A stretch of 33,404 nucleotides of DNA. It comes from a virus. Location: positions 1 to 33,404 of the IMG/VR virus record IMGVR_UViG_3300030328_003146; one strand, 5' to 3'. Positions within the stretch are counted from its first letter, which is position 1. The number at the start of each line of letters is the position of its first letter. The position numbers and the translations under genes were made by a program. The notes under the pieces were generated by a model. That model was not told the origin of the DNA. It did no database searches and saw nothing but the letters and a program-made list of their open reading frames with translations. Of the stretch, positions 26 through 20,417 are shown piece after piece.

Positions 26-277
26 CTACTTAACAAAGCGTAGTTGCGTTTCATACAGTTGGGATTGTGCATCCCACATTTCACTGACCTCGTCAGCACC
101 ATCGAGCATATCCTCGAAGTCATTATTTTTATACAGATCAAAGCTATGCTTTATTATACAGTAGATCTGATCCTGATCTTCTTCGATCCATGAACAGCTA
201 TCGAAAGCCCTATTTTTAATCATTAATTCCAAATTATTACCTAGTAATTCTTTCATTTTATTATTATAATTTATCAT
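26..277 (-). CDS. Small acidic hypothetical protein (83 aa)
   Basis: The function is not recognised. The product is short and acidic, with clusters such as EEDQDQ and DFEDMLDGADE and no membrane segment. A second in-frame ATG at 256 (giving MKELLG...) has the more A-rich leader AATAATAAA and may be the true start. It is supported as a gene by its context: a promoter-like element at 315-349, an AAAT-rich leader, and a hairpin immediately past the stop, an arrangement shared with the neighbouring leftward gene at 355-591. Small leftward genes with individual promoters beside a rightward structural block are typical of early, host-directed phage genes, but that role is inferred only. Confidence 0.62.
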   Translation of the reverse strand: MINYNNKMKELLGNNLELMIKNRAFDSCSWIEEDQDQIYCIIKHSFDLYKNNDFEDMLDGADEVSEMWDAQSQLYETQLRFVK

Positions 278-314
278 AGTAGTTTATTTATTTATTTATT
301 AATTTATTTATATT

Positions 315-349
315 TATTATCCTATTTAATTAGTATTTATTTTATAAAA
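315..349 (-). promoter_or_regulatory. Promoter-like element, copy 1
   Basis: Read on the minus strand this is TTTTATAAAA, then 17 bases, then GGATAATA. The same two boxes at exactly the same spacing recur at 662-696 and 739-773. The GATAAT core and 17-base spacing resemble a -10/-35 layout, and it sits 37 bases upstream of the leftward gene ending at 26. TTTTATAAAA is a perfect palindrome, so a dimeric regulator site is an alternative. Confidence 0.6.
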
Positions 350-367
350 GGAACTCATACGAGCTCC
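340..367 (-). terminator. Intrinsic terminator of the second leftward gene
   Basis: On the minus strand GGAGCTC, loop GTAT, GAGTTCC form a seven-pair stem (one G-U) followed directly by TTTTATAAAA. The TGA stop codon of the gene at 355-591 lies across the loop and the 3' arm. The T-tract is also the upstream box of promoter copy 1, so termination and re-initiation signals are fused. Confidence 0.75.
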
Positions 368-591
368 TTCATATTCCTAACAAATACCGGTAAGTTATTG
401 GTATTGGTGTAGGATTTATACTTAGCAAAGCAAGGCATAGCTTCGAAACGTTGTTTGTGAGCGTTATATACCTTATCGTGATTGTAACTTACCTTTTTAC
501 CTTTATTGGTAGTGAAAGTTATAATGGTATTAGTACCTATTAACGTTTTACGAATCACAAATCTTTTAGTAGTTATTTTATTAGTAGTCAT
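355..591 (-). CDS. Small basic hypothetical protein (78 aa)
   Basis: The product is not recognised. It is short and Lys/Arg/Thr-rich with alternating hydrophobic and polar residues suggesting a small beta-rich fold (KTLIGTNTIITFTTNKGKKV), and no membrane segment. The start at 591 follows an A/T-only leader (AAATAAATT before ATG). Two promoter-like elements (662-696 and 739-773) lie upstream and an intrinsic terminator overlaps its stop, making it a self-contained transcription unit. It may be an early host-takeover protein by analogy with small phage genes in such units, but nothing in the sequence fixes the function. Confidence 0.62.
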   Translation of the reverse strand: MTTNKITTKRFVIRKTLIGTNTIITFTTNKGKKVSYNHDKVYNAHKQRFEAMPCFAKYKSYTNTNNLPVFVRNMKELV

Positions 592-661
592 AATTTATTT
601 AATTTAAAGTTTAAAATTTATTTATATAATTTATTTAATTTATTTATTTATTTATTAATTA

Positions 662-696
662 TATTATCCCTTTATATTAGTATTTATTTTATAAAA
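662..696 (-). promoter_or_regulatory. Promoter-like element, copy 2
   Basis: Minus-strand TTTTATAAAA-N17-GGATAATA, identical in both boxes and in spacing to copies 1 and 3. It lies 70 bases upstream of the leftward gene starting at 591, separated by an AAAT-repeat leader like that of copy 1. Confidence 0.62.
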
Positions 697-738
697 ATTC
701 TTAATTTTAAAAAAAGAGATAAGTTATTTATTTATATA

Positions 739-773
739 TATTATCCATTAAAAGTCGTAATTATTTTATAAAA
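739..773 (-). promoter_or_regulatory. Promoter-like element, copy 3 (no gene of its own)
   Basis: Minus-strand TTTTATAAAA-N17-GGATAATA with the same spacing as copies 1 and 2. Only a 42-base AT-rich segment separates it from copy 2, and no open reading frame lies between. It either adds a tandem promoter for the gene at 355-591 or is what remains of a lost gene unit. Confidence 0.55.
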
Positions 774-789
774 ATGCTATACACAAAAG

Positions 790-912: not shown

Positions 913-996
913 AAATTATATGGTGCAATACAAACTATCTCTACATCTAATAATAATATGTGACATTAGCTAATTATAGTATAGAGTAACAGGCTA

Positions 997-1026
997 TTGT
1001 CATACTTTTTTAAAAAACCATTTTTG
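997..1026 (+). promoter_or_regulatory. Candidate Bacteroidetes-type promoter for the rightward genes
   Basis: TTG at 997-999 is followed after 19 bases by CATTTTTG at 1019-1026, one base away from the flavobacterial -7 consensus TAnnTTTG, with the expected -33 TTG spacing. It lies about 40 bases upstream of the first rightward gene at 1068. Confidence 0.42.
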
Positions 1027-1067: not shown

Positions 1068-1352
1068 ATGGCAAAACCTAAAAAGAAGGGTGGGCCTAAG
1101 CAAAAACTTAGTCCAAAAGCGGCAGCTGATAAGAAGGCTAGGGATAAGAAAAGAGCGATGAGGGCTGATCGGCGTGCTAAAAAGGCTGATTCACAGAAAA
1201 AGCATCGACAAAACCCGTCTATGAAGGGTAAGGACTACGATCATAAGGATAAAAAGTTTAAGAGTGTTAAGGCTAATAGAGGAAATGATGGAAAAGGGAC
1301 GAAAAAAGAGGGTAAAAGACGTTTTAGCATTAAAATAATGAAAACAACTTAA
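1068..1352 (+). CDS. Very basic Lys-rich small protein (94 aa)
   Basis: The product is dominated by Lys and Arg throughout (MAKPKKKGGPKQK, KKARDKKRAMRADRRAKKAD), with a more structured C-terminal part containing DYDHKDKKFKSVK and NRGNDGKGTKKEG. No membrane segment is present. The start follows AAAAACATT without a Shine-Dalgarno sequence. It is the first gene of the rightward block, just after the candidate promoter at 997-1026. The composition suggests nucleic-acid binding, for example a virion DNA-condensing or early DNA-associated protein. I believe the C-terminal motif recurs in other marine phage small proteins, but no named family can be given. Confidence 0.68.
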   Translation: MAKPKKKGGPKQKLSPKAAADKKARDKKRAMRADRRAKKADSQKKHRQNPSMKGKDYDHKDKKFKSVKANRGNDGKGTKKEGKRRFSIKIMKTT

Positions 1353-1357
1353 TAGAA

Positions 1358-1468
1358 ATGGTAGCTTTAATTAATGCAGACGCTTTTATAGCCATGATTA
1401 TAGGATTATGTTTATTATTAGTCTCAATAAAAATGCTAAGTGTTATGATTAGCGACAAAAACAAATAA
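1358..1468 (+). CDS. 36-residue single-span membrane peptide
   Basis: ATG at 1358 opens a 36-codon frame closed by TAA at 1466-1468. The peptide has a short N-terminus with one Asp (MVALINADAF), one hydrophobic span of about 20 residues (IAMIIGLCLLLVSIKML) and a charged tail ending SDKNK. It begins five bases after the preceding stop and has the A-rich leader usual here. The layout is that of a small phage membrane peptide, such as a holin-like or superinfection-exclusion peptide; which one cannot be told. A chance frame is possible because it is so short, but a clean transmembrane pattern with a charged end is unlikely in random AT-rich DNA. Confidence 0.5.
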   Translation: MVALINADAFIAMIIGLCLLLVSIKMLSVMISDKNK

Positions 1469-1478
1469 AAAAACATTA

Positions 1479-1516
1479 AAAGGTAAAAAACCTTAAAGAA
1501 AACCGCGATATTGCGG
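1479..1516 (+). promoter_or_regulatory. Two small hairpins in the leader of the next gene
   Basis: AAGGT/ACCTT around an A-loop, then CCGCG/TGCGG (1503-1507 with 1512-1516, loop ATAT) occur in the 103-base gap before the gene at 1572. Neither is followed by a T-tract, so they are weak terminator candidates or leader structures. Confidence 0.3.
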
Positions 1517-1571
1517 CTTAACCATGTAAATACATAAAACCATGACTTATTTTTATTACCGTTCAAACACA

Positions 1572-1832
1572 ATGAACAACCAAACACAAATAAATCCAGA
1601 AGTAATTAAGAAACTCAAGCATGTTGCTGAGAAAGGTAACTGGAGGATTACACAATTACCCAATGGGTTTTATCAAACCGAGCACCGAGACATCGATAAT
1701 GAAGATGTTTGGTATGACGTTACAAGACGAGAGACCTTAGATGGCGCGGAAGCTGCTATCGATGGTAGTATCGAACATTATAATAAAAAGCTTGAGGCTA
1801 CAAAAGGGCCTAAAGTAGTTAAAACATTTTAA
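1572..1832 (+). CDS. Conserved-looking small hypothetical protein (86 aa)
   Basis: I prefer the start at 1572 (MNNQTQINPEVIKKL) over the in-frame ATG at 1542 because the ten extra residues (MTYFYYRSNT) look unlike a protein N-terminus and 1572 has the A-rich leader TTCAAACACA. The product has an N-terminal helix, then beta-like segments (NWRITQLPNGFYQTE), a WYDVTRRETLDGAEAAID helix region and a basic tail ending GPKVVKTF. It has no membrane span or recognised catalytic motif. It sits alone between two leader hairpins and a strong terminator, so it may be a monocistronic unit. Function unknown. Confidence 0.68.
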   Translation: MNNQTQINPEVIKKLKHVAEKGNWRITQLPNGFYQTEHRDIDNEDVWYDVTRRETLDGAEAAIDGSIEHYNKKLEATKGPKVVKTF

Positions 1833-1841
1833 ACAAAATCT

Positions 1842-1866
1842 AGGCTAGCCTTCGGGCTAGTCTTTT
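1842..1866 (+). terminator. Intrinsic terminator with UUCG tetraloop
   Basis: A nine-pair stem (AGGCTAGCC with GGCTAGTCT, one G-U) closes on a TTCG loop flanked by C and G, the very stable cUUCGg tetraloop. It is followed by TTTT and lies ten bases past the stop of the gene ending at 1832. Confidence 0.85.
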
Positions 1867-1880
1867 AAATTCTAAAAATT

Positions 1881-2306
1881 ATGCCAGTAGTAGCAGGAAA
1901 AGATTACGCTTATAACGCAGCAGGTAAAGCAGCTGCAAAAAAAGCTAAAGAAAAGGTTAAAGAAAAAAAGAAAGCAGTTAAAACTGCTAAGAATGAGAAA
2001 AAAACAGTTGATGCCATAAACAAAGCAGGTAAAACTATAAACAAAACTTCTAAAGGTCAAACCGGCACTGTTAAAAATAAAGATGGTCAAACTTCTACAG
2101 CAAAGCAAAGGCAACAATTAAAAGCAGGTGCTAGGTCGCTTAAGTCTAAATTAAAAGCAACGGAAAAATCAAAGAAAAAAGAAGCTGCTAAAAATAAAAG
2201 ACTTGCAACAAGAAATACTATCAAAACAAGCAACCAATCAACTAGGGATCAAAATCAAAGAAATAGAAAAAGTAATAGAGCTAATAAGAAAAGTATTAGA
2301 TCATAA
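1881..2306 (+). CDS. Lys/Ala-rich basic protein (141 aa)
   Basis: The N-terminus MPVVAGKDYAYNAAGKAA is followed by a long, charged and low-complexity body of Lys, Ala, Thr, Asn and Arg (KAKEKVKEKKKAVK and similar), predicted mostly helical or disordered, ending in an Arg/Asn/Ser-rich tail. No membrane segment is visible. It starts 14 bases after a terminator, so a promoter or read-through must feed it. The composition suggests binding to DNA or to the capsid interior. It is the second strongly basic protein within 1.3 kb (the other is at 1068-1352), but the two share no obvious alignment. Function unknown. Confidence 0.7.
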   Translation: MPVVAGKDYAYNAAGKAAAKKAKEKVKEKKKAVKTAKNEKKTVDAINKAGKTINKTSKGQTGTVKNKDGQTSTAKQRQQLKAGARSLKSKLKATEKSKKKEAAKNKRLATRNTIKTSNQSTRDQNQRNRKSNRANKKSIRS

Positions 2307-2360
2307 CAAAACAATCAAATACAAATAAGTAAAATATACAATTTAATTTAATCTAATTTA

Positions 2361-3923
2361 ATGGAATACAATCAACCCAGTGAGATTGTCAAAGATTTGA
2401 ACTTTGGTGACTCAGCTAAAAACAGAATATCAACTGGGGTAGAAAAACTAGCAGGCGCTGTTAAATCTACTCTAGGTGCATCAGGTAAATGTGTAATTTA
2501 CGAAGATGCTAGAGGTAAACCAGTGATCACAAAAGACGGAGTAACCGTAGCGGAATCGGTTGTCTTGTTTGATCCAGTGGAGAACATAGGAGCAACTCTT
2601 ATTAAAGAGGCTTCTAGGAATACAGTAAGGGAGGCAGGTGACGGTACTACTACAGCTATCGTACTTGCTGAATCCCTTTTAAATGAAGTTAACAAAAGTC
2701 CTGAATACACTACAAGACAAATTAAATTAGGTATAAACTCTGCTCTAAGCAAAGTGAATGAATATCTAGATAAAAATAGTGTGGACGTTTCCGGTAGAAT
2801 GTTAAGTAATGTTGCCACTATATCTTGTAATAATGACGAGAATTTAGGTGATACAATTGCTGAGGCATACAACGTTGTTGGTAAAAATGGTGTTGTATTG
2901 ATGGAAGAATCGGAAACAAACGAAACTTACGTAGAAACTGTTGATGGTGTACAGATTGATTGTGGTTTAAAATCACCTCATTTTGTTACAGATAAAGATA
3001 GAGAGACTGCAACATTAGAAAACCCGTTAGTATTAATAGTATCATCAGAAATACCAAGTATTAGAAAGATACAATCCATACTAGAACACGTTATAAAACA
3101 CAAGCGGGCTTTGTTGATAGTAGCTCCAGTAGTGCAACAAGTTCAATCTGCTTTGATGATGAATAAGGTTAAAGGTAATATTAATGTTAATATTATTGAA
3201 ACACCTGGATTTGGACCTACTAAGCAAGATGCTATTGAGGATTTAGCCATACTTACTGGTGCTAAAGTTATTAGTGAAGAACTTGGTGATGATTTAGACT
3301 TGATACAACCTGATTGTTTAGGTGAGGTATTAAAATCAGTTACAGATAATAAAAACACTGTACTTACTATAAAAGAAATTAATAGTGATATTGGTGAAAG
3401 AATATCTGAAGTTGAAAAGAAAATAGAAAAAGAAAAAAACGAATTTATAAAAAGAAAATTACAAGATAGACTTAGTATGCTATCTGGTTCTGTTGGTATT
3501 GTAAGAGTAGGCGCGGACTCAAAGGTTGAGTTAAAAGAAAAGAAAGATCGTGTTGAAGATGCAATACATGCTGTTAAAGCGGCATTAAAAGAAGGTATAG
3601 TTTCTGGTGGTGGTATATCCTTACTGAACGCATCACAAAAAACAAAGCCTTCTAACGAATGTGAAAATATATTATTAAGAGCAATACGTTCACCTTATAA
3701 CACTATACTAGAAAATGCAGGTATAGAAGACTCAGTTGAACCTTTAAAAAAGGGTTGGGGCTTTGATGTCGTTTCTGGTGAGCATGTTAATATGGTAAAA
3801 AGTGGGATCATAGATCCTGTATTAGTTACAAAGACAGCTTTAAAAAATGCAGTTAGCGTGGTATCCACCATCATATCTGCAGATTGTGTTATATCTAATA
3901 TGAGGACTAATGAAAGCAATTAA
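2361..3923 (+). CDS. groEL: Phage-encoded GroEL-type chaperonin (520 aa)
   Basis: Group I chaperonin (Cpn60), an ATP-driven folding chamber acting in the cytoplasm. Family signatures are clear: ITKDGVTV (Lys58/Asp59, equivalent to E. coli Lys51/Asp52), GDGTTTA at 93-99, RVEDAIHA with the catalytic Asp400 (E. coli Asp398) and VSGGG at 414-418. It is shorter than E. coli GroEL (548) and lacks the GGM-rich tail, ending MRTNESN. By-eye alignment of the apical domain shows changes at GroES/substrate-binding positions: E. coli Tyr199 to Leu203, Tyr203 to His207, and Leu234 and Leu259 both to Gln, while Phe204 is kept. At the ring interface Arg452 is Asn, whereas Glu461, Ser463 and Val464 match. It starts after an A/T-only leader and overlaps groES by 14 bases. 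It is likely used for folding virion proteins. Confidence 0.96.
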   Translation: MEYNQPSEIVKDLNFGDSAKNRISTGVEKLAGAVKSTLGASGKCVIYEDARGKPVITKDGVTVAESVVLFDPVENIGATLIKEASRNTVREAGDGTTTAIVLAESLLNEVNKSPEYTTRQIKLGINSALSKVNEYLDKNSVDVSGRMLSNVATISCNNDENLGDTIAEAYNVVGKNGVVLMEESETNETYVETVDGVQIDCGLKSPHFVTDKDRETATLENPLVLIVSSEIPSIRKIQSILEHVIKHKRALLIVAPVVQQVQSALMMNKVKGNINVNIIETPGFGPTKQDAIEDLAILTGAKVISEELGDDLDLIQPDCLGEVLKSVTDNKNTVLTIKEINSDIGERISEVEKKIEKEKNEFIKRKLQDRLSMLSGSVGIVRVGADSKVELKEKKDRVEDAIHAVKAALKEGIVSGGGISLLNASQKTKPSNECENILLRAIRSPYNTILENAGIEDSVEPLKKGWGFDVVSGEHVNMVKSGIIDPVLVTKTALKNAVSVVSTIISADCVISNMRTNESN

Positions 3924-4167
3924 TTACTACTTAATAGTAAGTGATATAAAAGAAGAGCAAAAAAAGATTGCTGGACTTATTTTCACAGAAAAGACAGACC
4001 TAGATAATCGTTACATTAGAGCTAAGGTTATCAGCTGCGGCAGTAAGGTCGAGGGTGTCGACAATAATGACATAGTATATTATGACAAGCATGCAGGACA
4101 TGGTATCAGCTATGAAGACACCCTTTATAAAATTATAAGAGTACAAGACGTAGTTCTTGTCGAATAA
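3910..4167 (+). CDS. groES: GroES-type co-chaperonin (85 aa)
   Basis: Cpn10-like lid of the GroEL chamber. The N-terminal strand (YYLIVSDI), a mobile-loop region at about 16-33 containing AGLIF (equivalent to the E. coli GGIVL hydrophobic tripeptide), AKVISCG, DNNDIVYYD and the closing VQDVVLVE all fit the family in order. It is 12 residues shorter than E. coli GroES (97), mainly because the roof hairpin between the AKVISCG and DIVYY segments is short. The ATG lies inside the end of groEL, so the two are translationally coupled, in the order EL-ES instead of the usual bacterial ES-EL. The hydrophobic loop edge is intact, so it should be able to dock on a chaperonin. Confidence 0.85.
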   Translation: MKAINYYLIVSDIKEEQKKIAGLIFTEKTDLDNRYIRAKVISCGSKVEGVDNNDIVYYDKHAGHGISYEDTLYKIIRVQDVVLVE

Positions 4168-4171
4168 AAAA

Positions 4172-4189
4172 ATTCTATTAATATAGAAT
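4172..4189. terminator. Weak symmetrical hairpin after groES
   Basis: ATTCTAT and ATAGAAT pair around a TAAT loop four bases after the groES stop. The rightward 3' side lacks a T-tract, but on the minus strand it is followed by seven T residues, so it would serve better as a leftward terminator. It may be a processing hairpin only. Confidence 0.3.
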
Positions 4190-4265
4190 AATCCACAAAC
4201 CTTAATCCAAAATCCAATAACCACAAACGGTAAATTAATTTTAAAACTTAAAACAAATAACAATT

Positions 4266-4625
4266 ATGAAAAAGTTTTTATATTTTGCAAGTGGAGCTCC
4301 TGATTCAACAACATCAACTGAGCAAGTAGCTTGTTTTCCTGCTGATAAATTATCTCATCTTGAGATGCACACAGCAACTGCTCTTAGACTTTATTTTAGT
4401 TCTAATCAAGAGTTAGATGAAGATTCAGGTATAGATGCACCTGTTGTAGCTCTTACTATTACTTCTGGTAAACATAAAGAAGTTATAGAATCTATAACTG
4501 GTGCTATTGCTAGTGCTAATGCTATTAACAGTCCTTTTATTGTTGTAGCTGATAGTGAAAACAGTGTTTTCTTAAATGGCAATATTACAGCTTGTGCTTC
4601 AGTAGCAGTAGTTGATGCATCATAA
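4266..4625 (+). CDS. Small probable virion protein (119 aa)
   Basis: The product is uncharged over long stretches, rich in Ala, Ser, Thr and Val, with alternating patterns suggesting beta strands (DAPVVALTITS, SPFIVVADSENSVFLN). MKKFLYFASG at the start is not followed by a typical signal-peptide cleavage region. The leader AATAACAATT before ATG fits the A-rich start context used here. Composition and neighbourhood (upstream of holin and fibre genes) suggest a small structural or decoration protein. No family name can be assigned. Confidence 0.68.
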   Translation: MKKFLYFASGAPDSTTSTEQVACFPADKLSHLEMHTATALRLYFSSNQELDEDSGIDAPVVALTITSGKHKEVIESITGAIASANAINSPFIVVADSENSVFLNGNITACASVAVVDAS

Positions 4626-4628
4626 TAA

Positions 4629-5069
4629 ATGCGATTAACAGCACAAGATCTTCGTGATCTTAACATCCTTAAGTATTACAGGCTCACACGTAAGTGGGTC
4701 TGTAAAACTTATGGATTAAATGATGCTGATCTTGAATTATTAATATACTTAGATTGTAAAGGAAGATTTACACGTAATGAATTTATAGATGGTGCTTATA
4801 CATATACTTGGGATAAGCACAGGTGGGAGAGATTAAAAAGAGAGGGTTGGATAGAGGTTTGGAGACAAAGAAATAGGACTACTATAAAATACAGTGTATT
4901 TAAAACATCGTTTAAATGTAGTCAAGTAATAAGTAGAATATATAGAATACTACTAGGTGAAGAAGATCCACCATTTACAGAAAGAAATGTTTTTCATAAA
5001 AACAAAACATATACTGATAAAGTAATGAATAAAGCTTTAGATGATATGATAAAAGATAAAGACAGATAA
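4629..5069 (+). CDS. Putative winged-helix DNA-binding protein (146 aa)
   Basis: The order of elements suggests a winged helix-turn-helix: LNDADLELLIYLDCKGRFT (about 29-48, helix 2 and turn), a recognition-like helix TWDKHRWERLKREGWIE (about 60-76) and a wing VWRQRNRTTIKYSV (about 77-90), in the style of MarR-like folds. A basic helical region (SRIYRILLG) and a Lys/Asp tail follow. It begins three bases after the previous stop and ends two bases before the next start, so it belongs to the same operon. A regulator among late genes may control the late transcription programme or bind the phage genome; both ideas are inferred. The fold call needs structure prediction. Confidence 0.6.
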   Translation: MRLTAQDLRDLNILKYYRLTRKWVCKTYGLNDADLELLIYLDCKGRFTRNEFIDGAYTYTWDKHRWERLKREGWIEVWRQRNRTTIKYSVFKTSFKCSQVISRIYRILLGEEDPPFTERNVFHKNKTYTDKVMNKALDDMIKDKDR

Positions 5070-5071
5070 TT

Positions 5072-5776
5072 ATGCCAGTAAGTACAGATCCAAATAGAAA
5101 ATTAAGTAAAAGAAAAACTAAGTTACAAACTAGTTCTAAATACTTACAAAAAAGATTTAAAGAAATTCAAGAATATAAAAATAGCTTTAAACCTGTAGAA
5201 AGCAAGGTTTTAGCTGATAATAGAACTTTTTTATCAACTAAGCAAACTGGTACTGGTAGTGCTAAAAGTGCTCAAAATGTTTATAGTGAAGGTATTGTAG
5301 AAAAAAAATATGGAGGTAGTAGGCCTGATAGTAAATTTGTTAGTGTTATTGTTAATTCTCAAACTGGACCTACAACAGCAACTGGTGGTCAGGCATTTGC
5401 AACTATAGAAGGTGATAAGTTTCAACGTGGAAATATTAAAACTACAGGTTCTCCTAATGTTACTTTTTTAAGTTACGAGCAAAGACAAAGAAATATAGAA
5501 CAATATAATAAAGAATTAAAAAAATTTAGAGAAGACCAAAAACAACTTACCAGAAAAGATTTTAAAAAACTATATGGTGATGAATCTAAAAGTCAAGCTA
5601 AAAAAGGCTATGGTAGAGATTTTACACCTAAAGGTTTGAGAAAAATGCAAAGTTTTTATGGAGAAGGCGATTTAAGAGATATAGATGCAGGAACATTATT
5701 GTTAGGTAATAAAGGATTAAAAACTTTTAAAACAAAAGTTCAAAAATTAAGAGATCAAGGTAAAGGACTGACATGA
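5072..5776 (+). CDS. Hypothetical basic protein (234 aa)
   Basis: The function is not recognised. The N-terminal 45 residues are Lys/Arg-rich and probably helical (NRKLSKRKTKLQTSSKYLQK), the middle (about 50-130) is Gly/Thr/Ser-rich and probably beta, and a second charged helical segment (QYNKELKKFREDQKQLTRKD) precedes a Gly/Lys tail with DAGTLLLGNKG. No membrane span is present. Start and stop overlap neighbours tightly (two-base gap before, ATGA-type four-base overlap with the holin-like gene after), so its translation is coupled to theirs. It may be a minor virion protein. Confidence 0.68.
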   Translation: MPVSTDPNRKLSKRKTKLQTSSKYLQKRFKEIQEYKNSFKPVESKVLADNRTFLSTKQTGTGSAKSAQNVYSEGIVEKKYGGSRPDSKFVSVIVNSQTGPTTATGGQAFATIEGDKFQRGNIKTTGSPNVTFLSYEQRQRNIEQYNKELKKFREDQKQLTRKDFKKLYGDESKSQAKKGYGRDFTPKGLRKMQSFYGEGDLRDIDAGTLLLGNKGLKTFKTKVQKLRDQGKGLT

Positions 5777-6219
5777 GTGAAAAGAAAAAATTTAAAGATA
5801 CAAAGTTAGGTGGATTGCTAAAAAGCTTAGCACCTAAGATATTAGATGTCGCAGGTGATCTATTACCAGATGCTGGAGTTCTTAGCATGGTAGGTAAAAT
5901 GATAGACGATGATCCTAAAATATCACCTGAAGATAAAAAAGTATTACATGAGCAACATGCTGAAATGTATAAACTAGAGGTAGCTGATAGAGACTCTGCT
6001 AGAAACAGAGAGATAGAAGTTGCTAAAACTGGTAAAAAAGATTTTATGATGACGCTAACAGGTATTGTTGGTTTGTTGTCATTTGCTTTTATAATATATG
6101 CCGTAGTTTATGTACCCTCTGTAACGGACAATGATTTATTTGTACACTTAATGGGTATGGTTGAAGGTGTTGTTATAAGTAACATATTTGCATATTATTA
6201 CGGAACAAGCGCGAAATAA
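5773..6219 (+). CDS. Holin-like membrane protein (148 aa)
   Basis: Holins form the inner-membrane lesion that triggers lysis. The sequence has a soluble N-terminal part with an amphipathic helix (GGLLKSLAPKILDVAGDLLP), a DRDSAR motif at 72-77 and an EVAKTGKKD linker, then two hydrophobic spans at about 92-113 (MMTLTGIVGLLSFAFIIYAV) and 123-143 (FVHLMGMVEGVVISNIFAYYYG). This architecture with RDSAR before the membrane part resembles the three-span holin family found in gene-transfer-agent-like and many tailed phages. It overlaps the upstream gene by four bases and precedes the fibre genes. No endolysin is recognised nearby, so the lysis role is inferred from the topology. Confidence 0.68.
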   Translation: MSEKKKFKDTKLGGLLKSLAPKILDVAGDLLPDAGVLSMVGKMIDDDPKISPEDKKVLHEQHAEMYKLEVADRDSARNREIEVAKTGKKDFMMTLTGIVGLLSFAFIIYAVVYVPSVTDNDLFVHLMGMVEGVVISNIFAYYYGTSAK

Positions 6220-6225
6220 AACTAA

Positions 6226-6951
6226 ATGGCTAGAATATCAACGTACACGTTAGACGGGACTGTTTCTAATACCGATAAAGTAATTGGTACAGATTCTGAA
6301 AATACAACTACAAAAAACTTTAAAATACAAGATTTAAAAGAGTTTATATATGCTGGTATTAGTGGCAATATGACCGTAGCTTCTAACGGTACTGCGACAA
6401 CAAGTAGTTCCGCTACTTTAACTACAGCTAGAAATATTGGTGGTGTATCTTTTAATGGATCAACCAATATTACTTTACCTGGTGTAGATGCAACAGGTAA
6501 TCAAGATACAACTGGCACAGCGGCTATTGCCACAACTATAACAGTTGCTGATGAGTCTAGCGATACAACATGCTTCCCTATATTTGCTACTGCAGCAACG
6601 GGTGATTTAGCACCTAAAAGTGGTAGTAACTTAACCTTCAACTCTAGTAGCGGTGCTTTAACAGCAAGCAACTTTGTAACAACTTCAGATAAAAGATTAA
6701 AATCTGAAATACAACCCATCAAAGAAGGTTTAGAAATAATCAAACAATTTACATCTTATAATTATATTAAAGACGGTGAAAAAGAATCTGGGTTTATAGC
6801 TCAAGAAGTTCAAAAAGTTTTACCACACAATATTAAAGAAGATTATAGAGGATACTTATCTATGAGTGATAGAGGTGTTTTAGCGCATATGCATAAAGCA
6901 ATACTTGAATTAGAAGAAAAATTAGTAGCAATAGAAGAAAAACTTAAGTAA
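6226..6951 (+). CDS. Short tail fibre with S74-type self-cleaving chaperone domain (241 aa)
   Basis: Residues 1-150 form a Ser/Thr/Gly-rich fibre stem ([21 protein letters not shown]...). The C-terminal 90 residues match the intramolecular chaperone/peptidase S74 domain, which trimerises the fibre and then cuts itself off: the SDxRxK motif is present at 154-159 (SDKRLK, with the Ser-Lys catalytic dyad), followed by [22 protein letters not shown] at 189-200 and a terminal coiled-coil helix ([16 protein letters not shown]). Cleavage before Ser154 is expected from the family. It directly precedes the DUF285 fibre with one base between stop and start, suggesting coexpression as parts of one fibre apparatus. 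Confidence 0.88.
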
Positions 6952-6952
6952 T

Positions 6953-8443
6953 ATGGGTGTACCTACTAGTGGTAGTTTTAGTATGTTTGGAAACAGTGAT
7001 AACACTACAATACAAGGTGCTATAACTGAAGGCGGTGGATCTGTAGCTAGTGTTGATAATTTAAATGCTTTAATAGCCGCATCTAATGTTTCTTTATTTA
7101 ATACAACTTACTCTGGAGATTTAAGTGGTAGTTTAAGTAATGTAACTAACGCCAATCAATATAGAGGTTATCCTACAGTAACATCACCAGCCTTTGCATT
7201 TACTTACACATTTCCTGCAGGTCAGACTTATAATGCAAGCATTCTTTTATTTGGTACTTCTAGTGAATATAATGCTACTTGGACTTGGGGAGATGGTACT
7301 ACAACAAGTATAACTGATAACAGTGCACTTAGCAGAACCATAGCAGACAATAGTGGAGGTGGATCAACAAGCACATATAATGGAAATGTAGTAGGGGCAA
7401 CAACTGAAGGGTTTCCAGAATGGTATTTAAATAATTTGAATGTAACTGATATCTCGGCTTGGGGTAACTTAAAGTGGAAAAAATTAGTATTGGGAAAAGC
7501 AGATAATAATTTAAATATAAGTGCTAGTGACACACCAGATCTTTCAAGATGCACAAGTTTAGAGGGTTGTTTTTCTAGTGTAACAAATTTTAATGACAGC
7601 AATGTTACTAGTTGGGATGTTAGCAATGTACAGTTATTTACTAGTATGTTTTTTGGTGCTTTTGCTTTTAATCAAAATATAGGTGGTTGGAATACAGGAA
7701 GTGCCACTGATTTCCTACAAACGTTCATGAATGCTACATCTTTTAATCAAAGTATTAATTCTTGGGATACTGCAGACGTTACTAGTATGGTGAATATGTT
7801 TAGAGGAGCTACATCTTTTAATCAAACTTGTAATTCTTGGAACACGAGTAATGTTACAAATATGGGAGCAATGTTTAAAGGAGCTACTTCTTTTAATCAA
7901 GATCTAAATTCTTGGGATGTAAGTAGCGTTACAAGCATGAGTAGTATGTTTGATGGAGCAACTGCTTTTAATGGAAATATTACTAGTTGGAATGTAAGTG
8001 GTGTTACTAATAGTATGACTGTTATGTTTAAAAACGCACAATCTTTTAATCAAAATATTAGTTCTTGGAACGTTAGTAATGTTATTAGTATGGCTAGTAT
8101 GTTTGAAGGTGCTGAAAGTTTTAACCAAGATATTAGTGGTTGGAATACAAGTAGTGTTACAAGTATGAGGAGTATGTTTCAGGATGCAACCGCTTTTAAT
8201 CAAAACCTTGCTAGTTGGGATATAGCAGATGTAACAGATATGACAAGTATGTTTCAAGCTACTGCTTTATCTGATGCTAATTATAAAGCTACAATTATAG
8301 GTTGGGCAGCACAATCAACACAAAGTAATGTAACAGCACACTTTGGTAGTGCAAACTTAACAGACTCTGCAGGTCAAGCCGCTAGAACAACATTAGTTAG
8401 TAGAGGTTGGACAATAACAGATGGCGATGGTACACATACTTAA
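6953..8443 (+). CDS. Fibre/adhesin with nine DUF285 (BspA-like) repeats (496 aa)
   Basis: The N-terminus ([14 protein letters not shown], 1-60) looks like a phage fibre attachment segment. Residues 75-150 form a beta region with a PKD-like WTWGDGTTT motif. Residues 213-438 hold nine near-perfect 25-residue repeats of the type FNQ-x-I-x-SW-[DN]-x-S-x-VTSM-x-x-MF-x-GATS, the DUF285 leucine-rich-repeat family known from mycoplasma and flavobacterial surface proteins. The C-terminal segment ([12 protein letters not shown]... and [16 protein letters not shown]) is the ending often seen on such proteins in Flavobacteriia, but no secretion-sorting domain follows. A receptor-binding role is the natural inference. 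The repeat block suggests acquisition from a host-type gene. Confidence 0.88.
7589..8266 (+). repeat. Nine tandem 75-bp repeats encoding the DUF285 units
   Basis: Units begin at the FN pair and are 25 codons long, except the first and sixth (26) and the last (24). At DNA level they share TCTTTTAATCAA and AGTATGTTT-type segments, with third-position drift between units. They could exchange or change number by recombination. Confidence 0.85.
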
Positions 8444-8503
8444 AAAGTAAACTATACGTGTGATACTATTTACAACAAGTACAATTTAATTAAATTTAAA
8501 ATT

Positions 8504-8758
8504 ATGGGTAAAAATAAAAAAATTAAAAAAGACGAGTTAGAAGCAATACAAGGTTTGGTAAAACAAATAAACAATGGTCAATCACAAATTGGTCAACTTG
8601 AAACTCAAAAACACGTGCTACTTCATCAAATAGGTGAGGTTCAAAAAGGTCTTAAAGATTTTCAAGAAACACTTGAAAAAGAATACGGTAAAGTAAACAT
8701 TAATATTGTAGACGGAACCATAACCCCAATTGAAGATGAGCAGCAAGCTAATACGTAA
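8504..8758 (+). CDS. Small coiled-coil protein (84 aa)
   Basis: After a Lys-rich start (MGKNKKIKKDELEAI) most of the protein is one amphipathic helix (VKQINNGQSQIGQLETQK, then LLHQIGEVQKGLKDFQETLEKE) with heptad spacing, followed by a short strand-like end (YGKVNINIVDGTITPIEDE). The leader is A/T-only (ATTTAAAATT before ATG). I believe the YGKVNIN ending occurs in a family of small conserved proteins in marine tailed phages, without a known role. Its end overlaps the start of the next gene by 29 bases. It is located at the head of the packaging block. Confidence 0.72.
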   Translation: MGKNKKIKKDELEAIQGLVKQINNGQSQIGQLETQKHVLLHQIGEVQKGLKDFQETLEKEYGKVNINIVDGTITPIEDEQQANT

Positions 8759-8960
8759 AATTAGCATTGGTAAAGATTATAAAAATGAATCTATGCATTA
8801 TTCCGTAGGTCAAGAGGTCTACGGAGGGCATAAGATTTCTAATATAATTGAAGAGGATGAAGGATATGACATCTATATTCAAAAAGATAAAGATGTTATT
8901 ATTTGGAAGAACTTCAATAAAAACATGGCTATATCAGTAGAGTATAATCTAGAATATTAA
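8730..8960 (+). CDS. Small hypothetical protein (76 aa)
   Basis: The product is not recognised. It reads as a small beta-rich domain (HYSVGQEVYGGHKISNI, GYDIYIQKDKDVIIWKNF, AISVEYNLEY). A second in-frame ATG lies at 8736 (MSSKLIRK), which may be the real start; either way the gene begins inside the upstream coding sequence in another frame. Its TAA stop shares its last base with the ATG of the next gene, so translation is likely coupled. The tight packing among packaging genes argues that it is real and coexpressed. Confidence 0.68.
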   Translation: MKMSSKLIRKISIGKDYKNESMHYSVGQEVYGGHKISNIIEEDEGYDIYIQKDKDVIIWKNFNKNMAISVEYNLEY

Positions 8961-9565
8961 TGCGAAGTATATATGATTTTATTATATCACCTAAAATATC
9001 AAGATATAATAATAGTAAAAAAGTAGGGGATAAAAATCTCATACTTAACACAGAGATATACAACCATCAATATGTTAGTAGAAAAGCTATAGTTAAATCA
9101 ATACCTATAGCTGTACCTACTAAAATACAGGTTGGAGATGAAATAATAGTTCATCACAATGTGTTTAGAAGATGGCATAATGTAAAGTCTGAAGAAAAGA
9201 ATAGTAGAAGTTATATAGATGAAAACACTTATTGTGTAAAAGAAGATCAAATATTTTCTTACAAAAGAAATAATAAGTGGATAGCTACAGATGGTTTTTG
9301 TTTTGTAAAACCAATAAAATCTACAGACAAGTATTCTTCTAATCAAGAAAAAGAGTGTGTAGGTGTTTTAAAACAAAGTAACAAAGCACTTTTAGAGTTT
9401 GGTTTAAAAGAAGGTGACTTAGTAGGATTTACACCTGTTAGCACTTATGAATTTATTATTGACGGTGAAAGACTATATAGAGTTTTAACTAGTCAAATTA
9501 CAATTAAATATGAATATCAAGGAAACGAAGAAGAGTATAATCCAAGCTGGGCAAGTAGCAGTTGA
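8960..9565 (+). CDS. Probable tandem GroES-like (Cpn10) protein (201 aa)
   Basis: Two halves show the same pattern, resembling duplicated Cpn10 barrels. Half one (about 1-102) has VSRKAIVKS, the VGDEIIVHH turn at 58-66 and TYCVKEDQIFSY at 90-101. Half two (about 103-185) has GFCFVKPI, ECVGVLK, the EGDLVGFTP turn at 151-159 and LYRVLTSQITIKYEY at 162-176. The VGD/EGD turn and the closing strand are where GroES has VGD and ESDILAIV. I recall similar proteins in marine phages annotated as co-chaperonin, but cannot verify it. The canonical mobile-loop tripeptide is not evident. It ends in a Glu-rich tail whose last 56 bases also encode the next gene. Possible roles: capsid-specific co-chaperonin or a virion barrel protein. 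Confidence 0.55.
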   Translation: MRSIYDFIISPKISRYNNSKKVGDKNLILNTEIYNHQYVSRKAIVKSIPIAVPTKIQVGDEIIVHHNVFRRWHNVKSEEKNSRSYIDENTYCVKEDQIFSYKRNNKWIATDGFCFVKPIKSTDKYSSNQEKECVGVLKQSNKALLEFGLKEGDLVGFTPVSTYEFIIDGERLYRVLTSQITIKYEYQGNEEEYNPSWASSS

Positions 9566-9788
9566 GGAATTAATTAAAGTAGCTAAAGAAGCTATTGTTG
9601 ATTCAGATGATGATATATCGGCAGACAGATTAAAAAATGCTGCTGCAACAAAAAAATTAGCTATCTTTGATGCGTTTGAAATACTTAAAAGAATAGAAGA
9701 AGAAGAAAACATAATAGAAAACAAAATACCAGTTGATATAAGCAAAGATGTATCATTTGGTGGTTTTGCAGAAAAAAAATCTAAATAA
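9510..9788 (+). CDS. Helical acidic protein; candidate small terminase subunit (92 aa)
   Basis: It is a mostly alpha-helical protein (AVEELIKVAKEAIVDS, SADRLKNAAATKKLAIFDAFEILKRIEEEEN) with an acidic middle and a Lys-rich end (GGFAEKKSK). There is no internal Met, so the start at 9510 stands and its first 56 bases overlap the upstream gene in another frame. Its position two genes before the large terminase, its size and its helical character make it the best candidate for the small terminase, which recognises phage DNA and loads the motor. No helix-turn-helix is obvious, so this is inference. Confidence 0.6.
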   Translation: MNIKETKKSIIQAGQVAVEELIKVAKEAIVDSDDDISADRLKNAAATKKLAIFDAFEILKRIEEEENIIENKIPVDISKDVSFGGFAEKKSK

Positions 9789-9794
9789 AAAAAT

Positions 9795-10154
9795 ATGGCA
9801 ACATTAACACCTACATTAACATTAGTAAGTACAGATTTAAGTAGTGATAGTTTATCTATAACCGCTACTGATAGTTTAACTGTAACACAACCTAATATTA
9901 GTACAGCTAAAATCTCAGTCAGTCATTCAAGTAAAACTAATATACTTGAAAACAATGCAACTACAACTTATGTATATGTAAAAAATACAGATAGTTCAAA
10001 TCACGTAAAATTATTTAATGATAGTGATCAAGAGTGGGGTATTATATGGCCTGGTGAGTTTGCTTTTTTTGGAGTAACTGATAATCTTGGATTTAGGATG
10101 CAAGCTAATAATGCAGCTTGTGTAGTTGAGTATGCTTATTTTACAAAAGGATAA
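9795..10154 (+). CDS. Small beta-rich virion protein (119 aa)
   Basis: The Thr/Ser/Leu-rich N-terminus (MATLTPTLTLVSTDLSSDSL) is followed by alternating strand patterns (TTYVYVKNTDSSNHVKLFND, IWPGEFAFFGVTD, CVVEYAYFTKG). There are almost no charged clusters and no membrane span. The composition is that of small head or fibre-associated phage proteins. It lies between the candidate small terminase (six-base gap) and the large terminase (three-base gap), within a co-transcribed block. I believe similar proteins are common in marine phages next to terL, but their role is unnamed. Confidence 0.7.
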   Translation: MATLTPTLTLVSTDLSSDSLSITATDSLTVTQPNISTAKISVSHSSKTNILENNATTTYVYVKNTDSSNHVKLFNDSDQEWGIIWPGEFAFFGVTDNLGFRMQANNAACVVEYAYFTKG

Positions 10155-10157
10155 TAT

Positions 10158-12380
10158 ATGTACAAACAAACCTTATATAAGGTTATAACTCCAATTAAAT
10201 TAAATACAATAGCAAGACTTAATAAGTCTAAAAAATGGGAGTATGGTTACAATAAGGAACATGATATTATTGTAATCAGTAAAACCGGTCAAATTGGTGA
10301 TATATATGAGATACAAAATCTTAAAATAGCTTTACCAAAACAAAGTAATATTGTTAAGTTTAAAAGTAATAAGTGGGAATATACCGAATATCCCAAGGAG
10401 CTTAATAAAATTAAAACAATATTTGACTGGAAAGAATACCCTAATAGTTTTAAGGAAAGATACATAGAATATATAGAGAATGAGTTCAAAATTAGAGAGG
10501 AAGGCTTATGGTATTATAACAACAGTAATCCTACTTATATTACTGGCACTCATTACATGTACTTGCAATGGAGTAAAATTGACGTCGGCAAGCCAGATTA
10601 TCGTGAAGCCAATAGATTATTCTACATCTTTTGGGAAGCCTGTAAAGCCGATTTTCGATCTTATGGGATGTGTTACCTTAAGAACAGACGATCCGGCTTC
10701 TCATTCATGGCGTCAGGTGAAGTTGTTAACCTTGCAACAATATCCAGTGATGCGCGTTACGGGATACTGTCCAAGTCCGGTCCCGATGCTAAGAAAATGT
10801 TCACCGACAAAGTGGTGCCTATATCCGTCAACTACCCTTTCTTCTTCAAACCAATACAGGATGGTATGGACAGACCAAAAACAGAACTCGCTTTTAGAGT
10901 ACCAGCATCAAAACTCACAAGACGGAGTATCAGTAGCACCGACAGGCCAGAGGATTTACAGGGCTTGGACACCACAATCGACTGGAAAAATACAGGAGAT
11001 AACTCCTATGATGGAGAGAAAATCAAACTACTGGTACATGATGAATCCGGGAAGTGGGAAAAACCAAACAATATCCTCAACAACTGGAGAGTCACAAAAA
11101 CAACCTTAAGATTAGGTAGTAGAGTAATCGGAAAATGTATGATGGGTAGTACATCTAACTCATTAGACAAAGGTGGTGGAAATTTTAAGAAACTATACAG
11201 AGATTCCGACGTAACTAAAAGAAATAGAAATGGGCAAACAAGTTCTGGCCTTTATAGTCTTTTTATTCCTATGGAATGGAATTACGAAGGGTTTATTGAT
11301 GAGTACGGTCAGCCAGTATTTGATACTCCTGAGACAGAAGCTAAAGGAGTTTATGGAGAAATCATAGATACAGGTATATTAGAGCATTGGCAGAATGAAG
11401 TTGATGGATTAAAAAATGATCCCGACGCGCTAAATGAATTTTATAGACAATTCCCTAGAACAGAGGAACACGCATTTAGAGATGAAACTAAGAACAGTAT
11501 ATTTAACTTAACTAAAATATACGAACAAATAGATTATAACGAAGGTGTTGGTAATAGTACGTCTGTTACTACTGGAAATTTTCAGTGGATTAATGGCATA
11601 AAAGATTCTAAAGTTATTTTTTATCCAGATCCTAAAGGAAGATTCAATATTAGTTGGATACCACAAATACACTTACAAAATAAAATAATAGAAACTAATA
11701 GCGGTAAAAAACCTGGCAATGAACATATCGGTGCTTTTGGATGTGATAGTTATGATATATCTGGTACTGTTGATGGTCAAGGTTCTAAAGGTGCTTTACA
11801 CGGATTAACTAAGTTTTCTATGGAAGATGCACCATCTAATAGTTTCTTTTTAGAGTATTTAGCTAGACCTCAAACTGCTGAAATATTTTTTGAAGATGTA
11901 TTAATGGCATTAGTATTTTACGGTATGCCAATATTAGCAGAGAATAACAAACCTAGACTTTTATACTATTTAAGACGTAGAGGTTATAGAGGTTATTCTA
12001 TGAATAGACCAGATAAAGTTTGGAATAACTTATCTAACGCGGAAAAAGAAATAGGTGGTATACCTAACTCTAGTGAAGACATAAAACAGTCTCATGCTGC
12101 TGCTATTGAAATGTACATACAAAACCACGTCGGTTCAAAAGGTAATGGTAGTTATGGTAACATGTATTTTAATAAAACATTAAATGATTGGTCAAGGTTT
12201 GACATAAACAATAGAACAAAGTTTGATGCGTCAATAAGTAGTGGTTTAGCCGTTATGGCTTGCAATAGGAATTTATATGCACCAAATGTGCAAAGAGAAA
12301 AACAAAAAATAAATATTGGATTTGCTAGATATAAAAATGAAGGCATGTCATCTAAAATAATAAAAGAACAATATGGCTAA
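10158..12380 (+). CDS. terL: Terminase large subunit, ATPase-nuclease (740 aa)
   Basis: TerL powers DNA translocation into the prohead and cuts the concatemer. The N-terminal extension (about 1-130) is followed by the ATPase part: the Walker-A-like KNRRSGFS at about 174-181 and a Walker-B-like LLVHDESGKW at about 290-299 with the DE pair. An arginine-rich segment with HAFRDE at about 435 follows, and the nuclease part begins with FGCDSYDIS near 526-534, the first acidic metal-binding position. It is longer than many TerL proteins. The ATPase-coding stretch 10561-11100 is about 44% G+C by hand count, against about 27-37% just outside. It overlaps the portal gene by eight bases. The upstream gap is three bases. 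Confidence 0.88.
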   Translation: MYKQTLYKVITPIKLNTIARLNKSKKWEYGYNKEHDIIVISKTGQIGDIYEIQNLKIALPKQSNIVKFKSNKWEYTEYPKELNKIKTIFDWKEYPNSFKERYIEYIENEFKIREEGLWYYNNSNPTYITGTHYMYLQWSKIDVGKPDYREANRLFYIFWEACKADFRSYGMCYLKNRRSGFSFMASGEVVNLATISSDARYGILSKSGPDAKKMFTDKVVPISVNYPFFFKPIQDGMDRPKTELAFRVPASKLTRRSISSTDRPEDLQGLDTTIDWKNTGDNSYDGEKIKLLVHDESGKWEKPNNILNNWRVTKTTLRLGSRVIGKCMMGSTSNSLDKGGGNFKKLYRDSDVTKRNRNGQTSSGLYSLFIPMEWNYEGFIDEYGQPVFDTPETEAKGVYGEIIDTGILEHWQNEVDGLKNDPDALNEFYRQFPRTEEHAFRDETKNSIFNLTKIYEQIDYNEGVGNSTSVTTGNFQWINGIKDSKVIFYPDPKGRFNISWIPQIHLQNKIIETNSGKKPGNEHIGAFGCDSYDISGTVDGQGSKGALHGLTKFSMEDAPSNSFFLEYLARPQTAEIFFEDVLMALVFYGMPILAENNKPRLLYYLRRRGYRGYSMNRPDKVWNNLSNAEKEIGGIPNSSEDIKQSHAAAIEMYIQNHVGSKGNGSYGNMYFNKTLNDWSRFDINNRTKFDASISSGLAVMACNRNLYAPNVQREKQKINIGFARYKNEGMSSKIIKEQYG

Positions 12381-14790
12381 TTCTATTAAAAATTATTTTC
12401 CTAGCCAAGTAGCTAGTGATCTTGAAAAAATAAGTCCAGAGTATGGACTTAAGGTTGCTAAAGCTATAGAGAGTGAATGGTTTCATGGTGATAACAGCAC
12501 GGATAGATTTAAAACTAATTATAATAGTTTTCGCAAACTTAGACTTTATGCTAGAGGTGAACAACCAATACAAAAGTACAAAGATGAATTGTCTATAAAT
12601 GGTGATTTGTCTTATCTTAATTTAGACTGGAAACCAGTACCTATTATTCCTAAGTTTGTTGATATAGTTGTTAATGGTATATCTGAAAGAACTTATGATA
12701 TAAAAGCTTATTCTCAAGATCCGTATGGAGTTAGTAAAAGAACTAAGTACATGGAAGATATACTTACGGATATGAGAACAAAAGAGTTAGATGCTTTTGT
12801 ACAAGAAAGCTTTGGAATAAACATATCTAACTTTAATAAAGAAGAATTACCAGACTCAAGAGAAGAATTAGAACTACACATGCAGCTGACATACAAGCAA
12901 GCTGTTGAGTTAGCTGAAGAACAGGCGATAAATACTATTTTAGAAACAAACAAATACGATTTAACAAGAAGAAGAGTAAATTATGATCTAACTGTTTTAG
13001 GTATTGGTTGTGTAAAAAATAGCTTTTCTAAATCTGAAGGTCTTAAAGTAGAATATGTTGATCCAATTAATTTAGTTTATTCTTACACTGATTCACCTTA
13101 TTTTGAAGATATTTATTATGTTGGTGAATTAAAAACAGTGCCAATTAATGAATTAAAAAAAGAATTTCCAAATCTAACAAATGAGGATTTAAAAGAAATA
13201 GAAAATTCTTCAAGCGTAACACAAACTCACAATAGTAGACACTCTTACGATAAAAAAGATAACAACCAAATAGATGTTTTATATTTTAATTATAAAACAT
13301 ACATGAATGAGGTTTATAAAATAAAAATGACAGGTAGTGGTGGTAGTAAAGTAATAATAAAAGATGACAACTTTAATCCACCAACTGAAATTTTAGATGA
13401 GAATTTTGAAAAAGTCTCTAGATCTTTAGAAGTATTATACGAAGGTGTTTTGGTTTTAAATAGCAGTAAGTTATTAAAATGGGAGATGGCTAAGAATATG
13501 ATGAGGCCTAAAAGCGATAATACTAAAGTTAAAATGAATTACAGTATTGTTGCACCTAGAATGTATAACGGTAGAATTGAATCTTTAGTTAGTAGAATAA
13601 CTGGATTTGCCGATATGATTCAGCTAACTCATTTAAAGCTACAGCAAGTAATGTCTAGGATGATACCAGATGGTGTTTACTTAGATGCTGATGGAGTTGC
13701 AGAGGTTGATCTTGGCAATGGAACAAACTATAATCCGCAAGAAGCGCTTAACATGTTTTTCCAAACTGGTAGTATTATAGGTAGATCACTTACTTCAGAT
13801 GGTGATATTAATAGAGGTAAAGTACCTATCCAAGAAATAGCTAGTGGTAATGGTGGAGCTAAAATGCAAAGTCTAATAACAACCTATAATTATTATTTAC
13901 AAATGATAAGGGATGTTACTGGTTTAAACGAAGCTAGAGACGGTAGTACACCATCAAAAGACGCTTTAGTAGGTGTTCAAAAACTTGCTGCGGCAAATTC
14001 CAATACAGCAACAAGACATATACTGCAATCAGGTTTGTTTTTAACTTCAGAACTTGCAGAGTGTATTTCACTTAGAATATCTGATATAATAGAGTATTCT
14101 CCTGCAAGGGATGCGTTTATTCAAAGTATAGGTGTTCATAATGTAGCTACACTAGAAGAAATGTTTAATCTTCATATACATGATTTTGGTATATTTATAG
14201 AACTAGCACCTGATGAAGAAGAAAAACAAATACTTGAAAATAACATACAAGCAGCTGTTGCTCAAAAAGGTATAGATATTGAAGATGCTATTGATTTAAG
14301 AGAAATAAAAAATATAAAATTAGCTAATCAATTACTTAAGATAAGAAGAAAAAAGAAACAACAAAGAGATCAACAAATTGCTCAAGAAAATATACAGGCT
14401 CAAGCTCAAGCAAACGCACAATCCCAGCAAGTAGCAGCACAAGCCGAGGTTCAAAAACAACAAGCATTAATTCAAATTAATAGTGAATTAGAACAATTAA
14501 AAGGTCAAATAGAACAACAAAAAATGCAACAAGAGGTTGCTGCTAAAAAAGAGTTAATGCAGTTGGAGTTTCAAATGAACATGCAATTAAAGCAAATGGA
14601 AGTTGAAGCTCAAAAAAGTAAAGAAACAAACAAGGAAGATAGAAAAGATAATAGAACAAAAATACAAGCAACTCAACAATCTGAGTTAATTGATCAAAGA
14701 AAAAATGAAAAACCACCTAAAAACTTTGAGTCAGCAGGTAATGATATAATTAGTGGTAATTTCAACTTAGGTGTTTTTGATCCTAGATAA
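12373..14790 (+). CDS. Portal protein (805 aa)
   Basis: The portal ring occupies one capsid vertex, docking TerL and the tail connector. It follows terL with an eight-base overlap. The first about 120 residues include FRKLRLYARGEQP and a WKPVPIIPKFVDIVVNGISER segment typical of portal N-domains; a long helical region and a FADMIQLTHLKLQQVMSRM segment correspond to the stem and crown body, and VTGLNEARDG at about 515-524 matches the conserved portal motif. Residues about 650-765 form a Gln/Ala/Lys-rich coiled coil (QANAQSQQVAAQAEVQKQQ), then a disordered tail. The length is large, as in portals of crAss-like and other podovirus-type phages. There is no sign of truncation. Confidence 0.85.
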   Translation: MANSIKNYFPSQVASDLEKISPEYGLKVAKAIESEWFHGDNSTDRFKTNYNSFRKLRLYARGEQPIQKYKDELSINGDLSYLNLDWKPVPIIPKFVDIVVNGISERTYDIKAYSQDPYGVSKRTKYMEDILTDMRTKELDAFVQESFGINISNFNKEELPDSREELELHMQLTYKQAVELAEEQAINTILETNKYDLTRRRVNYDLTVLGIGCVKNSFSKSEGLKVEYVDPINLVYSYTDSPYFEDIYYVGELKTVPINELKKEFPNLTNEDLKEIENSSSVTQTHNSRHSYDKKDNNQIDVLYFNYKTYMNEVYKIKMTGSGGSKVIIKDDNFNPPTEILDENFEKVSRSLEVLYEGVLVLNSSKLLKWEMAKNMMRPKSDNTKVKMNYSIVAPRMYNGRIESLVSRITGFADMIQLTHLKLQQVMSRMIPDGVYLDADGVAEVDLGNGTNYNPQEALNMFFQTGSIIGRSLTSDGDINRGKVPIQEIASGNGGAKMQSLITTYNYYLQMIRDVTGLNEARDGSTPSKDALVGVQKLAAANSNTATRHILQSGLFLTSELAECISLRISDIIEYSPARDAFIQSIGVHNVATLEEMFNLHIHDFGIFIELAPDEEEKQILENNIQAAVAQKGIDIEDAIDLREIKNIKLANQLLKIRRKKKQQRDQQIAQENIQAQAQANAQSQQVAAQAEVQKQQALIQINSELEQLKGQIEQQKMQQEVAAKKELMQLEFQMNMQLKQMEVEAQKSKETNKEDRKDNRTKIQATQQSELIDQRKNEKPPKNFESAGNDIISGNFNLGVFDPR

Positions 14791-14819
14791 ATAAAAATTA
14801 AAAATAAAACAAAAATAAA

Positions 14820-15427: not shown

Positions 15428-15439
15428 AATAATAAAACA

Positions 15440-15772: not shown

Positions 15773-15784
15773 AAAAAATAAAAC

Positions 15785-17317: not shown

Positions 17318-17371
17318 AGAAAATACATCTAGTGGGTTCTAGGTGCGGACAAACAAATAAACAATAATACA

Positions 17372-20406: not shown

Positions 20407-20417
20407 TTATTTTTAAA

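Follow-up and report, generated by a model that had tools for sequence, protein, structure and literature searches.

On the evidence of conservation among related genomes, the three repeats near the beginning of the window (the whole 33,404-nucleotide stretch of viral DNA analyzed here) are promoters of a phage-specific class, which forms a large family in marine Flavobacteria-type viruses. A refined position weight matrix (PWM) recovered 351 unique sites from 43 phage genomes, some of them partial, and the sites share a start-site signature; the suggestion in the preliminary description that the repeats belong to a promoter family preceding early genes is thus upheld. These promoters are probably read by a phage-encoded sigma factor acting on the host RNA polymerase.

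Promoter copies in the window

The motif occurs exactly three times in the window, with no mismatches and always on the minus strand (Table 1), and the identical spacing first described was confirmed in every copy. No further copies were found on the plus strand or in a reversed control, in the window as well as in the full 34,909-base record, and chance alone, under a first-order Markov model, would give about 3e-5 exact copies on each strand of the window. The 17-base gap that had been described between two boxes is exact in length, but it is not free sequence, as its first bases constitute a third conserved box that reads TAAATACGA in relatives and is degenerate in the window as TAAATACTA or TAATTACGA. 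The two boxes themselves are conserved exactly in the three copies, but their boundaries had been drawn slightly wrongly when judged by the sites of relatives.

The genetic context is also as it had been described, with small leftward genes behind the copies and AAAT-rich leaders following them. Copy 3, the most upstream, carries TTACGA in its -26 box and stands in tandem with copy 2 before ORF 355-591, the leader of which has no Shine-Dalgarno sequence, as expected in Bacteroidetes. The element adjoining copy 3 recurs as (A/G)TGTA(T/C)AGCA a short way 5' of many early promoters in relatives (upstream regions of L084-L117), where it is sometimes doubled and often located just 3' of a G+C hairpin. 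No promoter copies were found in the rightward late module, in which GroEL was identified by sequence and by its position in relatives. At 6953-8443 and 6226-6951 of the window, a DUF285-repeat protein adjoins tail-fibre-like proteins, possibly as a receptor-binding module.

Table 1. Features of the window and operator copies in the near relative G004 (window positions unless G004 is named)
Feature	Position	Strand	Details
Promoter copy 1	315..349	-	TTTTATAAAA TAAATACTAATTAAATA GGATAATA; -10 box GATAAT at 321-316
Predicted start, copy 1	309	-	+1 = A at 309, -1 = T at 310; upstream of leftward ORF 26-277
Promoter copy 2	662..696	-	-10 box GATAAT at 668-663; predicted +1 = A at 656, preceded by T; ORF 355-591
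Promoter copy 3	739..773	-	-10 box GATAAT at 745-740; predicted +1 = A at 733, preceded by T
Small leftward early ORF	26..277	-	ATG at 277; 83 aa; homologue in G004
Small leftward early ORF	355..591	-	ATG at 591; 78 aa; kept in at least 80 viral contigs
AAAT-rich 5' leader of ORF 26-277	278..309	-	32 nt
AAAT-rich 5' leader of ORF 355-591	592..656	-	65 nt, predicted +1 to ATG
Upstream element GTGTATAGCA	775..784	-	directly before copy 3
Putative palindromic operator	961..1002		TGACATTAG...CTATTGTCA, 42 bp; divergent early/late region of the window
Rightward late/structural module	1068..33331	+	GroEL, GroES-like, terminase, portal, virion proteins, tail fibres
Operator copies in G004	54152-54193, 55667-55710		early/late divergence
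Further operator copy in G004	62885-62927		

The site family and its predicted transcription starts

Sites in relatives were first read upstream of homologues of the 78-aa product of ORF 355-591. Their version of the site is TnACAAAn-TAAATACGA-N9-GATAATA-TAAAT(A/G), also written TnACAAAnTAAATACGA-N9-GATAATATAAAT(A/G), and the invariance of GATAAT across the family is partly due to its use as the anchor of the search. As had been remarked for the window, the sites do not match the Bacteroidetes TTTG/TAnnTTTG consensus and carry GATAATA instead. On strand, 355 of 357 PWM sites lay on one strand per genome, while reversed sequences of the 43 genomes yielded none. An independent pattern scan was positive in 48 of 50 contigs, and its reversed-pattern control gave 0 in all 50. 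Genomes contain approximately 5 to 13 sites each, nearly all on the early/replication strand and mostly just 5' of genes. Random scatter, for which this genome and its relatives had been proposed for searching, was therefore not what emerged: matches were strand-pure and preceded early genes, and the promoter reading was not refuted. Promoters of the late module were not found.

The near relative G004 (68,251 bp), approximately 79% identical in DNA to the window over the promoter region, illustrates this arrangement, as all 13 of its sites fall within 54.4-64.3 kb, on the early/replication strand, and the structural module contains none. In the same genome, the 78-aa early protein is encoded twice in similar versions (54565-54801 and 55817-56059), each with its own promoter.

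Transcription starts were predicted from conservation, using 158 sites chosen without use of the start region (nothing downstream of GATAAT). Counted 7 positions on from the final T of GATAAT, the base was a purine in 158 of 158 sites, and T or C preceded it in 135 of them. A purine at +1 with a pyrimidine at -1 is the usual start-site preference. Because this signature places the predicted start 7 bases past GATAAT, GATAAT would constitute a -10 box at -12 to -7, with ACAAA at -36 to -32 and TAAATACGA at -30 to -22. The predicted distance falls within the 5 to 10 bases named in the preliminary description, and the three starts predicted in the window on the same grounds are each an A following a T (Table 1). 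An ATG occurred within 60 nt of +1 in 71% of sites, compared to 18% at random positions. Moreover, +1 fell exactly on the A of ATG in 50 of 353 sites, such that approximately 14% of sites would be predicted to yield leaderless phage mRNA. Leaders across the family are 49% A, and 2.8% contain GGAG or AGGA, in agreement with translation in Flavobacterium (PMC6847099).

Candidate readers of the sites

Host core polymerase with a phage sigma factor is favored because the sigma gene and the motif co-occur and because of the geometry of the sites. G004 encodes, at L167:3535-4290, a 251-aa protein of the sigma-70 family with regions 2 and 4 (phrog_351, E 1e-22; Pfam). The profile of this family aligns with FliA (1rp3) over residues 28-242, nearly its full length, and also with SigA, and a structure model of moderate confidence (mean pLDDT 79, pTM 0.47) was matched by Foldseek to SigA chains at probability 1.00. 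The sigma gene was present in 42 of 50 and in 12 of 40 contigs examined, which are often fragments; the contig of G009, for instance, extends downstream from the small gene for about 8 kb only, and in G004 the sigma gene lies at 9 kb. One collection contains 474 contig stretches that encode a relative of this sigma. The window's 34.9-kb contig is itself a fragment without the gene, and a sigma factor is ascribed to its virus by analogy with G004. Two sister genomes were negative for both motif and sigma: the complete genome MW202828 contained 0 motifs, an elemovirus contained 0 in 50 of 59.8 kb, and tblastn and profile searches found no sigma in either. No cultured relative with the sigma was found in the phage collection searched, and literature searches on Bacteroidetes phage sigma factors or promoter motifs returned no title or abstract that reported the motif. 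Three contigs (G006, G039, and G050) each carry two full-length sigma genes; the 129.5-kb record G050 may represent two joined genomes or a duplicated module.

In this mechanism, the host core RNA polymerase would carry the phage sigma (~251 aa), which is encoded downstream in the early module of relatives; opening of GATAAT would fall to its region 2 and recognition of ACAAA to its region 4. In G004, a promoter of this class (62,363) also precedes the sigma operon itself. Following an initial weak round of synthesis by a different route, the sigma would thus boost its own expression, and that initial sigma would have to come from a start read by the host, from read-through, or from a factor carried in the virion. 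It is not obvious which part of such a sigma factor would read the TAAATACGA box at -30 to -22. Nearly every copy in G004 has ATAAA in place of ACAAA as its -35 box, while the sigma recognition helix is unchanged relative to G001-G003.

A second regulatory gene accompanies the sigma gene. It encodes a 208-aa protein with a C-terminal helix-turn-helix (HTH), lies next to or near the sigma gene, and has no fold match in the PDB. The gene was found in all 43 genomes of the first set, adjoining sigma in 30, and at 49 of 50 further loci; elemoviruses, which have no sigma, carry a weak relative of the protein. In most genomes, a 42-44-bp palindrome, TGACAATAGCC...GGCTAATGTCA, spans or closely precedes the HTH start codon. 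Both half-sites were exact at 19 of 82 distinct HTH starts and at least one at 59, with variants recognizable by eye at many others. Copies at the early/late divergence are listed in Table 1. The HTH protein probably binds this separate palindrome, both over its own start codon and at the divergence, and probably serves as a feedback and switch factor rather than as the promoter reader; autoregulation combined with an early/late switch would be the simplest reading of the operator.

The same protein figures in an alternative that we regard as unlikely, in which the -10 box is opened by the primary sigma of the host, and a DNA-binding protein of the phage, such as the HTH partner, occupies the -36/-22 region and replaces -35 recognition, as with T4 MotA/AsiA. 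The near-universal presence of the HTH gene would suit such a scheme, as would the upstream boxes, which vary among phages above an invariant -10 in the manner of MotA boxes, and the position of TAAATACGA at -30 to -22 is near that of the T4 MotA box (centered at -30, 12 bp from the -10; PMC2988021). However, flavobacterial sigma A prefers TAnnTTTG at -12 to -5 rather than GATAAT (PMC9723704), and the conserved palindrome over the HTH start codon, which is unlike the promoter boxes, looks like the HTH target. The HTH protein had at first seemed a likely reader of the upstream boxes, a view weakened by this operator and by a recognition helix that stays constant between G004 and its neighbors while the -35 box changes. 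It is barely conceivable that the sites are not promoters but binding sites for a repressor or another regulator at the TTTTATAAAA palindrome, which is exact in all three window copies. The corresponding position in relatives reads TTnACAAAn, without a palindrome, and the dyad is specific to the lineage of the window, appearing even in G004 in some copies only. Because relatives have ACAAA there, TTTTATAAAA is, by this comparison, a lineage form of TTTACAAAn, and its palindrome is incidental; the underlying C-to-T change is present in 12 of 13 G004 copies and all three window copies. The dimeric regulator once proposed at TTTTATAAAA thus found no support. The fixed geometry to GATAAT and the purine start signature argue for a promoter, and strand purity disfavors regulator binding as the main role.

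The two other alternatives concern different polymerase partners. Recognition by a host alternative sigma factor, with promoters copied by the phages, appears very unlikely. Early promoters must work from the onset of infection, and Flavobacteriaceae chromosomes do contain isolated exact copies, including two homologous ones located upstream of a gene. Nevertheless, a scan of 84,980 genomes found the exact motif at only 8 loci, several of them on small contigs of possible phage origin; 299 Flavobacteriaceae genomes gave 10 matches with up to 2 mismatches versus 6 in the control; and chromosomes with the motif had one or two copies only. Host motifs known from F. psychrophilum are TAnnTTTG variants and sigma-54-like and ECF types (PMC9723704). 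The genome scans thus led us to reject a host regulon. The exact chromosomal copies (L376:317-368, L377:135-186, and L378:4268-4319) precede a TerB-like gene and a small secreted-protein gene common to two genomes, and may reflect chance or host genes switched on by infection.

Reading by a phage-encoded RNA polymerase, whether single-subunit and T7-type or carried in the virion, is highly improbable. Its appeal lies in AATACGACT, whose letters form part of the T7 promoter, and in the many copies with TAATACGACT or AAATACGACT, letters that we take to be those of the T7 promoter at -17 to -8. However, the bases after GACT are variable, the family-wide conservation is TACGA rather than TACGACT, and the conserved start lies 7 bases past GATAAT and not at the T7 position. 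PF00940 matched 0 of 22 contigs, though no control genome matched either. On this start signature and the absence of a detected polymerase from those contigs, a T7-like promoter was rejected. For a virion polymerase within giant proteins, Pfam, PDB, and motif searches likewise yielded no support: both giant proteins of G004 lacked the motifs searched for, and neither one of these nor the 2734-aa protein of the window matched Pfam, the latter matching a virion structural family. A 2577-aa protein with a HEVIH zincin-like motif (L164:6025-13758, minus strand), which has no Pfam or PHROG match, is possibly an ejected polyvalent protein. Of the phage-encoded or phage-modified polymerase that had been envisaged, the modified form, host core with phage sigma, is thus the best reader, and the T7 kind was not supported.

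Promoter dialects and known systems

The form of the upstream boxes differs among phages and is consistent within a genome. ATAAA is used by G004 and the window, ACGGA by L407 and L408, and CCGAA before a few genes of L100; other forms include AAACACGA and a T or C in place of the purine before GATAAT. Between G004 and its ACAAA neighbors, the recognition helices of the sigma and of the HTH protein are the same. By mutual information, sigma residues K120 and I119 rank first and third for base -13 (T), where region 2.4/3.0 would lie, a signal that may follow one clade. Overall, covariation of sigma and promoter was weak, clade-bound, and confounded by descent, and HTH-promoter signals were also clade-bound only. 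We tentatively consider it possible, rather than probable, that a three-box sigma promoter, with the extra 9-bp element at -30 to -22 read as well, has diversified into phage-specific dialects (ACAAA, ATAAA, ACGGA, or CCGAA; TAAATACGA or AAACACGA; R, T, or C before GATAAT) that change together in most copies per genome, giving orthogonal transcription systems among related marine phages.

The closest functional parallels are the T4 gp55 late and SPO1 gp28 middle promoters, where, as here, a phage sigma-like factor is paired with a phage promoter type that is not used as a host regulon. T4 gp55 reads only the TATAAATA -10 box at late genes, whereas the present family, found on the early/replication strand in phages of Flavobacteriia-like hosts, combines a -10 box, a box at the -35 position, and a box at -30 to -22. 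T4 middle promoters, with a MotA box and a sigma-70 -10, similarly combine a phage box at about -30 to -22 with a well-kept -10; however, a TGCTT-like MotA box takes the place of the -35 there, while the phages described here keep a box at that position and encode a sigma. Resemblance to sigma-28/FliA is seen in (C/T)AAA-N19-GATAAT versus TAAA-N18-GATAA and in the nearly whole alignment of FliA with the phage sigma profile, although SigA chains score equally and sigma-28 may not be the nearest group. Relative to the sigma-28 consensus, TAAAGTTT-N11-GCCGATAA (PMC2859248), the phage sites have no GCC before GATAA and add the TAAATACGA box. Promoters of the Bacteroidetes primary sigma (TTTG-N19-TAnnTTTG), from the same host phylum, also have a -10-type box starting at -12, but the phage sites have neither TTTG box and carry GATAATA. 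The T7 promoter, TAATACGACTCACTATAGGG, has the letters of TAATACGACT in common with many phage copies; its start, expected 8 bases past the last T of TAATACGACT, and the conserved downstream GATAATA do not fit.

Little is known of the takeover of transcription by phages that infect marine Flavobacteria-type hosts, whose own promoters obey a different rule. The family described here provides a precise, testable early-gene promoter for an abundant uncultured phage group, together with a candidate reader, a candidate feedback regulator and its operator, and predicted starts that include those of leaderless mRNAs. The coordinated, genome-wide changes in its boxes constitute a natural data set on the co-evolution of promoters and their readers, and the sites may supply orthogonal expression parts for Bacteroidetes. 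Together, the family shows how marine Flavobacteria-type viruses would mark their own early genes.
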